Assembly (NCBI RefSeq): GCF_003002825.1
Contig: NZ_PVTE01000012.1
Span: 124,001-188,000 of the forward strand
Origin: Spirosoma oryzae
GTDB lineage: Bacteria > Bacteroidota > Bacteroidia > Cytophagales > Spirosomataceae
Length of the DNA stretch: 64,000 nt
Direction: 5' to 3'
Every line of letters starts with the position of its first letter. Position 1 is the first letter of the stretch. The position numbers and the translations under genes were made by a program. Shown here one piece after another: positions 55,214 through 58,122 of this stretch. The notes beneath the pieces are model-generated. The model was not told the origin of the DNA. It did no database searches and saw nothing but the letters and a program-made list of their open reading frames with translations.

Positions 55214-56857
55214 TCACATCAGCGGTTCTTCGACATCGGTGTCGAATACGCCTGTCAGCACCTTGCCCTGCCGTTTAACCTGTACCCAGATACGATATCG
55301 GCCCGCTTTGGGGAAGGAATACGGGAAGGAAACCATGTTGTTGATTTTCATCTCGTGCGAAGGCATAGCCGCAGCCAACACCTTGTTTCGCTCCGTTTCG
55401 GGCAACGTCTTCAAATAGGCAACGTACCGGTCGATACTATCCCGGAAAACATCAGCCTTGATGGACGGGGCGTAACGGGCCGTGTCGGCGATGCGTTTGA
55501 CCAGCGACCCTTCGGCCGCCATCGAATATGTTCCGACGGGGTGCAGGTGAATATACACCGAGCCGTCGTTGTGCAGAATAACGCCGTGACCGCTCATACC
55601 CAGGTAAGGCTCGATGGGCGTGGCCGTACCGTTGGCATCGGCTAGTGCGAACTTAAGCACGTACGGTTTTCCCGTTTCGAGCACCGCACCCGGCTTATCC
55701 ATCCAGAGCATACTCGATCCATCGGCCAGCGGCACCCGGTCGCCCGGTTTACCACAAACGATCATCGAATTATCGAGCCGGGCCATGGCGGGTTTGGCAG
55801 GCTTCGTACTAATCGCGTTGGTTACCAGCCAGCTGTCGTCGGGGTCGGTAACGGCTTTTACCGTCGTAATGGGCGTTTTTATGTCGACGGTATCGGTCAG
55901 CGTTTCGCTAAAACCACTTCTGTACACGACATCGGCAAAGAGCAGATACTTACCCGCCGGCAAACTGGGGAGCTGACTGTTGAACTGTAGCGAGTCTTGC
56001 CGAGTGGGGTGCAGATGGGCAAACGCATCGAGGCCCGGTACCCGCACCAGGAACGTGTGCATCAGCTTACCGTGGTCAGGAATCAGGAAATTCAGTTGCC
56101 GCCGGGTCGGGCTGTTGGGCATACTGAATCCAGTCGTATCGAGTCGTATCGCCAGTTCGGGACTTGCTGCGGACCCCGTAATCGTTGTCGTCAAGGTCGG
56201 CTTCTGGTACAGTTGCTCAGTCCGGTATACATCAGACGTGTGGCTCCACCAGCTACGCCAGCCGGTCAGCAACAGTGTGACGACGACCAGACCGACACCC
56301 ATACCCGCCAGTCGCCGACGCCGAAGTTTGGCGGGCGTAACCTGACCGGCAGTAAACACACCGTCGGCGTTACTGGCCCCAACGATCGTAACCAGCATGA
56401 CAACCAGCAACAGGCCCATCGCAGCCAGACCGATACCCGTCCCTGTCGGCATTTCGCGCAGAGCCGTCGCCACCGATACCACCGGTACAATCACCTGCTG
56501 ATGTCCGTCGGGACCATCGATCGTCAGCTCGATACTTGACGAGCCTGACTCCATGAGCCAGATATCACCCTGATACGGTCCGTCGGCCGATTGCGTCAGG
56601 ATGTCGTGCGTCGGTGCTCCTTTGTCTCCGGCAAAAAAGTAGATGGGCCGCGCCCCGATCGACGTCACCCGCCCCTGCTGCACAAAAACCGATATGTTGG
56701 CAACGCCCGGCACCACGTCAGGCGGTTGCACGCTAATCAGCAGTCCGTATTTACCAACCTGCTTTTCGACAACGATACCGGCACTACCGATGTGCGCCCA
56801 GGCCGAACCGATCGACAGCAGGATGCAGACAAACGAAAGAATTGTAATCCGCTTCAT
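55214..56857 (-). CDS. Two-helix membrane protein with duplicated H-L-H-P modules, possible copper binder
   Basis: I cannot name this 547-residue protein. It has a signal peptide ending in S-A-W-A, so the mature protein would begin with H22. A beta-rich periplasmic domain runs to about 135, then two membrane helices (about 140-160 and 184-200), then a large C-terminal region. That region carries two similar modules: H267 with H281-L-H-P (DAFAHLHP), and H424 with H437-L-H-P (SVYIHLHP). Such HxH-rich beta modules occur in uncharacterised copper-related proteins. The order soluble domain, two helices, soluble domain is that of PmoB, but the PmoB H-x-H copper site is not seen in the N-terminal domain. 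Its start is 23 bp from the upstream membrane gene's stop, so they form an operon. Confidence 0.7.
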   Translation of the reverse strand: MKRITILSFVCILLSIGSAWAHIGSAGIVVEKQVGKYGLLISVQPPDVVPGVANISVFVQQGRVTSIGARPIYFFAGDKGAPTHDILTQSADGPYQGDIWLMESGSSSIELTIDGPDGHQQVIVPVVSVATALREMPTGTGIGLAAMGLLLVVMLVTIVGASNADGVFTAGQVTPAKLRRRRLAGMGVGLVVVTLLLTGWRSWWSHTSDVYRTEQLYQKPTLTTTITGSAASPELAIRLDTTGFSMPNSPTRRQLNFLIPDHGKLMHTFLVRVPGLDAFAHLHPTRQDSLQFNSQLPSLPAGKYLLFADVVYRSGFSETLTDTVDIKTPITTVKAVTDPDDSWLVTNAISTKPAKPAMARLDNSMIVCGKPGDRVPLADGSSMLWMDKPGAVLETGKPYVLKFALADANGTATPIEPYLGMSGHGVILHNDGSVYIHLHPVGTYSMAAEGSLVKRIADTARYAPSIKADVFRDSIDRYVAYLKTLPETERNKVLAAAMPSHEMKINNMVSFPYSFPKAGRYRIWVQVKRQGKVLTGVFDTDVEEPLM

Positions 56858-56880
56858 TATAAATACCATCAGTCAGTTCC

Positions 56881-58122
56881 TTACCGGACAATTCGCTTCA
56901 TCCAGTTTCCCCATAGCAGGCCGATCCGTCCCGATAGCGTCGCGTACAGCAATGCCCAGGCGATGTTCGTCCAGAATACACTGGCCGACTGCATCCAGCG
57001 CGGATTGAAGGCGAAGCGGTATTGGTAGGTGGGATCGGCATCGTAGGGCCACATATACGACAGAAAAAATCCGTTCCGCGCGTAGGGCGACGTAGCCAGG
57101 AAGCCCCCAAACGGCCACTGTACGGCCAGGAATACCAGCAGAAACGCACCACCGTAGATCAGCGCCCGTTTCCAGTCGGCGAAGCGGCCCAGCGCATCCG
57201 GTAATTCAAAGCGATGCATCAGCCAGTCGACAGCCAGTGCCGGTACGATCAGCAGCAGCGGAAACATAAACGGCTGGTAGGTCGTAATCGGATTCAGCAC
57301 CGGCCCTAACCGGGGTGTTGCCGGAAAGAACTGAAGCACCCAGCTTGGCACCACCAACACCAGCATATAAAGACCGGCAACCGTCGTAACCGGCCAGCGT
57401 AGTTTCAGCGCCCGCCCAATAGCCAGCAGAAACAACGGAAAAATGATTGCCGCCGTGCTGTAGTAAGTCGACCGGTGCGATGCCAGCCGCCCCAACGATT
57501 CCGATGCCAGCGTGTAGACGATAGTCAGCAACAGTCCTGAAGCGAGCGCGACCAACCATTTCAGCCGGGTTAGCTGCACCGGATTGACAGCAGCCCCCTC
57601 GGCCAACCAGCGGTTTTGCAAGGCCAGTAAGCTAACCACAGCGCCAAACTGAAGCGTCATGATACCAATCGCCAGCACCGTGTGCGGGGGCGTCAGAATC
57701 TGCACATCCAGTCCGTAGGTATTATGCCACCAATCGTCGAACGGTGCCGAGGTAAGCATAGTCAGCGCGCCCCACACGCAGAACATCGCCCCCAGCGGGC
57801 CGTAGAAAACACCCCAGAACGGCACGGCAGTGGCCCGACCCGGATGCTTCTTCGAGAATGTCATGCTCAGAATCTGGTAGGCCGAGAACAACCCGGCAAT
57901 CACGGCCCCTACATAGATGACCAGGTGCGGGGGAGCCAGCAGACCGTCGCGGCCGATGCTCATGTGCCACATAATGTCCCAGAGCAGCCCAACGACAATA
58001 CAAAAGGACGCAAATACAACAGCGTATAGGTAGAGCGGAATGGTTAGCTGAGCCTGCTCTGTGGCAGGACGCGCTACCGGCTGACGAACCGCTACAATGG
58101 GAGAGGGAATGGCCGATTGCAT
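56881..58122 (-). CDS. Polytopic membrane protein with duplicated D-x3-H-x(12-13)-H hairpin
   Basis: This 413-residue protein of unknown function has about ten membrane helices (near 27-48, 67-87, 101-124, 148-169, 185-205, 218-238, 245-266, 283-303, 320-338, 380-398). Between helices 1 and 2 lies D49-x3-H53-x12-H66 (WDIMWH to APPH, with R58-D59 between). Between helices 3 and 4 lies a second copy, D129-x3-H133-x13-H147 (DDWWH to TPPH). The duplication suggests two metal sites at the same face. The first spacing equals that of the PmoC/AmoC metal site. It is the first gene of the cluster 58122-54223, divergent from the lipoprotein gene. Confidence 0.72.
   Translation of the reverse strand: MQSAIPSPIVAVRQPVARPATEQAQLTIPLYLYAVVFASFCIVVGLLWDIMWHMSIGRDGLLAPPHLVIYVGAVIAGLFSAYQILSMTFSKKHPGRATAVPFWGVFYGPLGAMFCVWGALTMLTSAPFDDWWHNTYGLDVQILTPPHTVLAIGIMTLQFGAVVSLLALQNRWLAEGAAVNPVQLTRLKWLVALASGLLLTIVYTLASESLGRLASHRSTYYSTAAIIFPLFLLAIGRALKLRWPVTTVAGLYMLVLVVPSWVLQFFPATPRLGPVLNPITTYQPFMFPLLLIVPALAVDWLMHRFELPDALGRFADWKRALIYGGAFLLVFLAVQWPFGGFLATSPYARNGFFLSYMWPYDADPTYQYRFAFNPRWMQSASVFWTNIAWALLYATLSGRIGLLWGNWMKRIVR

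Follow-up and report, generated by a model that had tools for sequence, protein, structure and literature searches.

Which of its copper sites methane monooxygenase uses for its chemistry is a long-standing matter of dispute, and it is unclear how the enzyme originated. The annotated operons of known monooxygenases in our comparison carried their subunit genes in the order C-A-B; one locus (L203) read A-B-C, so the order varies among known relatives. In the available text of PMC12576850, the copper ligands of the CuC site of the PmoC subunit are one aspartate and two histidines, and PmoB consists of two cupredoxin-like barrels linked by two transmembrane helices. The ligands of the CuD site of PmoC are given as Asn227, His231 and His245 in the available text of PMC12576850 and PMC11194816; the latter names CuD as the active site, where methane is hydroxylated, and states that the oxidation state of the copper is strongly affected when one ligand is a carboxylate, as at CuC.

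Here we describe a gene pair, P0001 and P0002, in a 64,000-nucleotide stretch of the Spirosoma oryzae genome (contig NZ_PVTE01000012.1, positions 124,001 to 188,000), referred to below as the window. The two genes are tightly linked as one unit. P0001 is related, at great evolutionary distance, to PmoC and PmoA joined in the order C then A, the A part being assigned from a predicted model. The features of the locus are as follows.

56881..58122 (-): P0001, a membrane protein of 413 aa, with a PmoC-like N-terminal half fused to a putative PmoA-like C-terminal half (open reading frame, predicted model and profile alignment)
57598..58047 (-): PmoC-like domain of P0001, residues 26-175, four helices and two Asp-His-His motifs (hhalign, six ligands in register)
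57925..57978 (-): CuC-like site D49, H53, H66, with W52, R58 and D59 within (invariant in 101/101; hairpin against the PmoC CuC hairpin, P 1.6e-7, z 11.8)
57682..57738 (-): CuD-like site D129, H133, H147, with Asp at the position of PmoC Asn227 (invariant in 101/101; hairpin against the PmoC CuD hairpin, P 0.0028, z 4.6, 0/100 shuffles)
56884..57597 (-): predicted PmoA/AmoA-like domain of P0001, residues 176-413 (VIA-align Z 9.9-14.4; two PmoA chains at a Foldseek probability of 1.00)
55214..56869 (-): P0002, 551 aa, with a signal-peptide-like start, His26 as the likely mature N-terminus (judged by eye), a beta domain, two transmembrane helices and a beta region; it resembles PmoB in architecture and in gene position
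56468..56794 (-): N-terminal beta domain of P0002, residues 26-134, from the invariant His26 (27/27); resembles the actinobacterial C-terminal domain (P 0.004, z 5.1)
56213..56446 (-): two transmembrane helices of P0002, 142-169 and 180-219 in the predicted model
55217..56212 (-): C-terminal His/Met-rich beta region of P0002 (invariant residues in 27/27 sequences)

The P0001 family and its metal motifs

The first-pass annotation had drawn attention to two motifs, D49-x3-H53-x12-H66 and D129-x3-H133-x13-H147, each completed by a P-P-H triplet, and both motifs and the triplets are indeed read in the 413-residue frame. The described placement at helix turns also agrees with the predicted model: its helices span residues 30-55, 64-89, 110-136 and 145-174, so that D49/H53 and D129/H133 would fall close to where helices 1 and 3 end, whereas helices 2 and 4 would start with H66 and H147. 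The model, built with 44 sequences, had a mean pLDDT of 87.7 and a pTM of 0.88, the second helix turn being less sure (pLDDT block means of 67 and 71 over residues 131-150).

Conservation was counted over 119 family proteins, reduced to 101 distinct sequences by the removal of duplicates. The six proposed ligands, whose conservation in a family alignment had been suggested as a check, were present in all 101, and H53, H66, H133 and H147 were the sole invariant histidines. W48, W52, R58, D59, P65, Y70, W131, W132, D139, P145 and P146 were likewise found in 101/101 and D130 in 100/101. The Arg-Asp pair that had been likened to one in PmoC (R58, D59) was thus invariant, and the proline two residues before H66 (P64) fell short of this (90/101). 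The ordered pair of motifs, D-x3-H-x12-H followed by [DN]-x3-H-x13-H, occurred in 88 of 2341 open reading frames of at least 100 aa, every one of them a P0001 family member, and in 0 of the 2253 others; this sample of 1.13 Mb comprised the window and 85 loci chosen for holding the P0001 family.

P0001 gave no Pfam match even at an E-value of 10, and an NCBIfam scan returned nothing above cut-off and one irrelevant sub-threshold match. These results agree with the initial impression of an undescribed family, as does the literature covered: among the open-licence PMC papers listed, none was seen to describe it. The available text of the surveys PMC6215863, PMC9038741 and PMC12533140 does not mention the family, and the string 'bacteroid' is absent from the main text of PMC6215863 and PMC12533140. 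When 44 family members were scanned, 38 Pfam families appeared, among them DUF6338 in 11/44 (best E 2.1e-4). We discounted these matches, DUF6338 included, as probable hydrophobic-helix noise, because they vary between members and P0001 itself has none. None of the best 50 of 152 rows from a viral structure library exceeded a probability of 0.38 against P0001, and a scan of viral contigs did not find P0001 relatives.

Relationship to PmoC and PmoA

Profiles were built from 44 members of the P0001 family and 27 of the P0002 family, and the PmoC set was taken from 10 of 80 loci, 7 of 10 plasmid matches and chain 7ev9_C, against which the comparison PmoC was checked. The CuC ligands of PmoC, which we take to be residues 156, 160 and 173, show the D-x3-H-x12-H spacing in the 7ev9_C sequence, and the same spacing was found in 101/101 P0001 family proteins. 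An unguided hhalign comparison of P0001 residues 26-178 (44 sequences) with 18 PmoC sequences aligned all six ligands in register, with P 3.3e-4 as a value for a single comparison rather than for a database search, as for all hhalign values given here. The score was 32.5, and 100 column shuffles gave a mean of 14.8 and a maximum of 22.3 (0/100 reaching the score; z 6.7); the reversed-PmoC control gave P 0.41. All z-scores may flatter the similarity, because column shuffles destroy helix periodicity.

A tblastn search with P0001 found four relatives on actinobacterial plasmids (E 3e-7 to 4e-4), one of which found four more records. Six of the eight were aligned, leaving out Streptomyces sp. FR1 and the Rubrobacter record, whose reading frame is not open; a match with 6% coverage was ignored. 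The six resembled the Bacteroidota P0001 profile with P 7.7e-16 and, taken alone, aligned to PmoC with the same ligands in register (P 5e-4, z 7.1, 60 shuffles). D-x3-H-x12-H was present in five of them (x14 in L199) and D-x3-H-x13-H in all six. When the Bacteroidota and the six actinobacterial sequences were compared with PmoC plus five archaeal AmoC sequences (from 5 of 24 loci), the similarity reached P 4.7e-6, hhalign probability 86 and z 12.7 (60 shuffles). The archaeal AmoC alone, five sequences that are much alike, matched P0001 weakly (P 0.044 for the N-terminal half and 0.13 for the full length). The rise of z with diversity (6.7, 7.1, 12.7) is what descent predicts and thus favours common descent.

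The likeness extends beyond the ligands. By spacing and hhalign register, PmoC residues pair with P0001 residues as W159/W52, R165/R58, D166/D59, P171/P64, F177/Y70, E228/D130, W229/W131, E237/D139, F240/I142, P243/P145 and F248/L150. All 23 PmoC/AmoC sequences keep D156, H160, R165, D166, H173, N227, E228, H231, E237, F240, P243, H245 and F248; P171 (22), W159 (18), F177 (18, with 5 Tyr) and W229 (15) were less conserved. The CuD histidines correspond to H133 and H147 (101/101, aligned to H231 and H245), and the residue at the CuD asparagine position is Asp in 101/101 P0001 family proteins and Asn in 23/23 PmoC/AmoC.

These comparisons revise the earlier picture of the locus, which had matched P0001 to the CuC site and taken the second hairpin for an extra duplicate of it. 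The distant kinship stands; the second motif, however, has the x3/x13 spacing of CuD (N227-x3-H231-x13-H245), so that both PmoC sites have their counterpart. Of 'distant or convergent', the wording used there, the first term is the one favoured by hhalign with its shuffles. Convergence would mean that unrelated helical hairpins had acquired a common metal motif and that the PmoA likeness described below reflects a common helix arrangement. Helical bundles can indeed score high structurally by chance, and phmmer and hmmsearch found no pMMO match in the PDB from P0001 or its 13-sequence profile. We nevertheless consider convergence unlikely: the two spacings, x12 and then x13, come in the right order, the second shell of R-D, W, E/D and P sits at the same offsets, the signal strengthens with the diversity of the sequences included, the remaining half of the chain matches PmoA, and the gene order fits.

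The two hairpins of the P0001 family were also compared with each other and with those of PmoC, using rows that covered more than 40% of the slice (50/50 and 23/23). Hairpins 1 and 2 (44 + 6 sequences) were strongly similar (P 1.3e-11, z 22.4, 0/100 shuffles), and they are plainly a tandem duplication. The two PmoC hairpins showed no similarity to each other (z -0.2, 57/100 shuffles reaching the score). Hairpin 1 resembled the CuC hairpin (z 11.8, 0/100) and, at a lower score, the CuD hairpin (z 4.1, 0/100); hairpin 2 resembled CuD (z 4.6, 0/100) and CuC (z 4.0, 1/100). At the level of sequence profiles, the P0001 family is thus a bridge between CuC and CuD, whose shared origin can no longer be made out within PmoC itself, and CuC and CuD would therefore be ancient duplicates. 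Tandem copies of the P0001 gene stand head to tail at two loci (L034:6061-8773 and L070:6001-8509); in L034, P0002 follows the second copy.

The earlier description of P0001 as a PmoC-like hairpin pair alone was incomplete, since the C-terminal half has a predicted PmoA/AmoA fold and a PmoB-like partner gene follows at 55214-56869. In a VIA-align comparison of the P0001 model with PDB chains (998 of 1000 covered), ranks 1-13 were all PmoA/AmoA, as judged from molecule names and chain lengths. Twelve of these chains had Z 13.5-14.4 and the thirteenth 9.9, a range to be read knowing that helical bundles can reach Z about 13 through common arrangement; the first unrelated row had Z 8.8. The alignments spanned 170-205 residues, mainly model residues 176-413 against chain residues of about 14-250. 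In Foldseek, two PmoA chains ranked third and fourth by E-value (0.15 and 0.20) with probability 1.00, and the other rows among the best 50 of 262 had probabilities of at most 0.30, all E-values being above 0.1. PmoC chains could not appear in the structure search because one chain per entry was shown. The sequence-profile similarity of the C-terminal half to PmoA was weak (P 0.02, 3/100 shuffles reaching the score) and reached a nominal P of 0.0039 over 138 columns with the actinobacterial sequences added. The C-terminal half of P0001 is accordingly predicted, from its model, to have the fold of a PmoA-type subunit.

The partner gene, its distribution and its neighbours

P0002 begins 11 bases past the P0001 stop codon on the same strand, and lay downstream of P0001 on the same strand at 81 of 85 loci. 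Three of the four exceptions (L036, L045 and L070) stop at a contig end, L036 retaining a fragment of the P0002 start; the fourth, L102, lacks P0002 inside its 6 kb of downstream sequence. Among 200 genomes of the bacterial family, taken as one draw, 123 held both genes, five held one and 72 neither, so that both occurred in 123 of the 128 holding either. P0002 occurred alone in four genomes: as a decayed remnant (G009), as a C-terminal part (G379 and G420) and, in the fragmented genome G466, as a full copy. P0001 occurred alone, as a partial copy, in G469, and G380 was counted as holding both on the basis of short P0002 fragments. The C-terminal part in G379 and G420 lies in a 391-codon frame, and P0001 was not found in either genome.

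P0001 was present in 124 of the 200 family genomes and in 3 of 296 genomes drawn from the phylum, the window's own counted. Of 35 further genomes from the genus, 34 have the gene, at matching places; the sole genome lacking it (G009) keeps a P0002 remnant with in-frame stops (contig C11:681239-681604). The nearest relatives came from a Spirosomataceae MAG (94% identity) and then from Spirosoma species, and the best 80 of 380 relatives belonged mostly to Spirosoma, Larkinella, Dyadobacter, Runella, Fibrella and Mucilaginibacter, with one Flavobacterium.

The P0002 model had a pLDDT of 79.4 and a pTM of 0.74. In all, eight histidines are invariant, and four methionines and Cys372 are invariant in the C-terminal region, where the residues conserved in 27/27 sequences are H266, H271, H285, H287, H428, H441, H443, M270, M425, M450, M502 and C372. 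Profile comparison did not show P0002 to be a sequence homologue of PmoB (whole profile P 0.19; N-terminal domain z -0.9, 82/100 shuffles reaching the score), and PmoB was absent among the structure rows listed for P0002, which were mostly Ig-like, fibronectin and complement proteins. A conserved H-x-H was not found in the N-terminal domain (27 sequences), the H-x-H motifs sitting in the C-terminal region. Several solved PmoB/AmoB chains start with His.

In five of the six aligned actinobacterial relatives, a signal-peptide-like stretch (judged by eye) ending in AHDPGQG precedes a C-terminal domain. This domain resembles the N-terminal domain of P0002 (P 0.004, z 5.1, 0/100 shuffles), so the C-A-B order may exist within one actinobacterial chain; against the PmoB N-terminal domain it gave z 0, with 40/100 shuffles reaching the score.

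Among the 25 neighbour clusters that recurred most often at the 85 loci, neither an alcohol or hydroxylamine dehydrogenase nor a copper gene was recognised by eye. At six of the 85 loci, all from Larkinella (L058, L061, L063, L066, L067 and L069), P0002 is followed on its strand by a gene for a small c-type cytochrome that has a single CxxCH. At 26 of the 85 loci, mostly from Dyadobacter (e.g., L071), an SH3/NlpC-P60-like gene (by eye) lies about 1 kb upstream of P0001 on the same strand.

Seven actinobacterial loci were viewed by annotation, with flanks of 5-6 kb. L199 neighbours CopC and a cytochrome c oxidase assembly gene, L200 two heavy-metal P-type ATPases and a four-helix copper-binding protein, L233 a cupredoxin, an HMA domain and a P-type ATPase, and L234 a multicopper oxidase and a cupredoxin. 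Weaker copper hints were found at L208 (a YHS domain and a BlaI/MecI/CopY-type regulator) and L235 (such a regulator and CcdA), and no copper or heavy-metal gene was annotated at the Rubrobacter locus L198. The match in that locus (L198:6001-7022) is in a frame that does not stay open over its full length, and it begins upstream of the annotated gene start. NlpC/P60-type genes are annotated near L198, L199 (as RipC), L208 and L235. The Mycolicibacterium chubuense NBB4 plasmid NC_018022.1 carries both a canonical C-A-B monooxygenase operon (L205) and a P0001 family member (L235).

Possible roles and comparison with known systems

In the arrangement we propose, P0002 would take the place of PmoB, so that an inner-membrane complex of two chains would correspond to C-A-B. 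Two copper ions would be held at the Asp-His-His helix turns of P0001, at the CuC and CuD positions. The His/Met-rich P0002, perhaps starting at a free histidine, may bind copper and exchange copper or electrons with the P0001 sites.

Two roles have to be weighed for such a complex. It may handle copper (binding, delivery or detoxification) on the outer side of the inner membrane rather than hydroxylate methane or ammonia, and the monooxygenases would then have grown from a protein of this kind; we hold this role tentatively, at somewhat less than even expectation. Four of the seven actinobacterial plasmid loci adjoin clear copper or heavy-metal genes, which argues for it, as do the invariant His, Met and Cys residues of P0002. 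The three remaining loci, with weaker hints or none, tell against it, as do the recurrent Bacteroidota neighbours among which no copper gene was recognised, and islands rich in metal genes on plasmids are a biased sample. A copper-dependent oxygenase or oxidase is nearly as likely: P0001 would be active like pMMO or AMO at its CuD-like site, with P0002 as a docking partner for an electron donor. The phenylalanines F177, F240 and F248 reported around CuD (available text of PMC11194816) pair by spacing with the invariant Y70, I142 and L150, and these retained hydrophobic residues, together with the six Larkinella cytochrome c genes, keep the oxygenase role in consideration. Opposed to it are the Asp that places a charged ligand where the pMMO site is neutral, the further charge of D130 and D139, and the recurrent neighbours, in which no alcohol or hydroxylamine dehydrogenase was seen. 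Our slight lean to copper handling follows from the charged ligands at both sites, the absence of a recurrent dehydrogenase and the actinobacterial copper context. We regard as rather doubtful the fuller proposal of an XmoCAB-superfamily outgroup, widespread among ordinary heterotrophic Bacteroidota and found in Actinomycetota too, its CuC and CuD still tandem duplicates, performing copper-dependent O2 chemistry on an unknown substrate.

As to membership, none of PF04896, PF02461 and PF04744 matched above its curated cut-off in the window's genome, and the positive controls W01 and W02 passed all three. AmoC was the best Pfam match, below threshold, of L200 (E 0.094) and L208 (E 0.044), and L199 had none; a Leifsonia plasmid gave a sub-threshold AmoC match (E 0.0055), and sub-threshold signals also occurred in two control genomes. 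Because P0001/P0002 falls below the Pfam cut-offs, has Asp for the CuD Asn, joins C and A in one chain in place of three separate subunits (the order C-A-B being kept) and lacks the CuB H-x-H, we do not call it a copper membrane monooxygenase; it very probably forms a branch sister to the XmoCAB fold, in which both metal sites are present. Two of these features are absent in some accepted members too: in the available text of PMC9038741, archaeal members are reported with D-sites not observed, so that the CuD Asn may not strictly define the family, and in that of PMC6215863 the CuB site is absent in Verrucomicrobia and so not strictly defining.

The pair may show how the family of methane and ammonia copper monooxygenases arose. 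For the dispute over the active site, a relative outside XmoCAB that has both sites but carries Asp at CuD is well suited as a comparison, and gene removal and copper assays are feasible because the pair occurs in cultured Spirosoma, Dyadobacter and Larkinella. The results also suggest that entire branches near the copper monooxygenase superfamily can escape surveys that use the three Pfam models.

Set beside known systems, the N-terminal domain model of P0002 resembles the small beta-sandwich copper proteins CrdA (Z 10.6) and FetP/P19 (FetP Z 10.2); beta sandwiches are, however, common among protein folds, a carbohydrate-binding module scores the same as CrdA (Z 10.6), and the likeness comes without shown sequence similarity. 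P0002 differs from PmoB/AmoB (PF04744) in that our comparisons found no sequence or fold match, and in having an N-terminal domain without conserved H-x-H and a longer C-terminal part; like PmoB, it has a secreted N-terminal domain apparently starting at His, two transmembrane helices and a C-terminal beta region, and it is the last gene of the C-A-B order. Compared with PmoA/AmoA (PF02461), residues 176-413 of P0001 show 14-19% identity in structural alignments, lie within the C-containing chain and are missed by the Pfam model, whereas the predicted fold matches over nearly the whole subunit at Z about 14. The PmoC-like part has four helices, whereas PmoC has five according to the available text of PMC12576850, and archaeal AmoC lacks two bacterial ones according to that of PMC10030591. 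Relative to PmoC/AmoC/HmoC (PF04896), P0001 has replaced the CuD Asn with Asp, is fused to an A-like half and lies below Pfam detection, but it shares D-x3-H-x12-H followed by [N/D]-x3-H-x13-H in the same order, with the ligands at predicted helix turns and the second-shell Arg-Asp, Trp, acidic and Pro positions at the same offsets.
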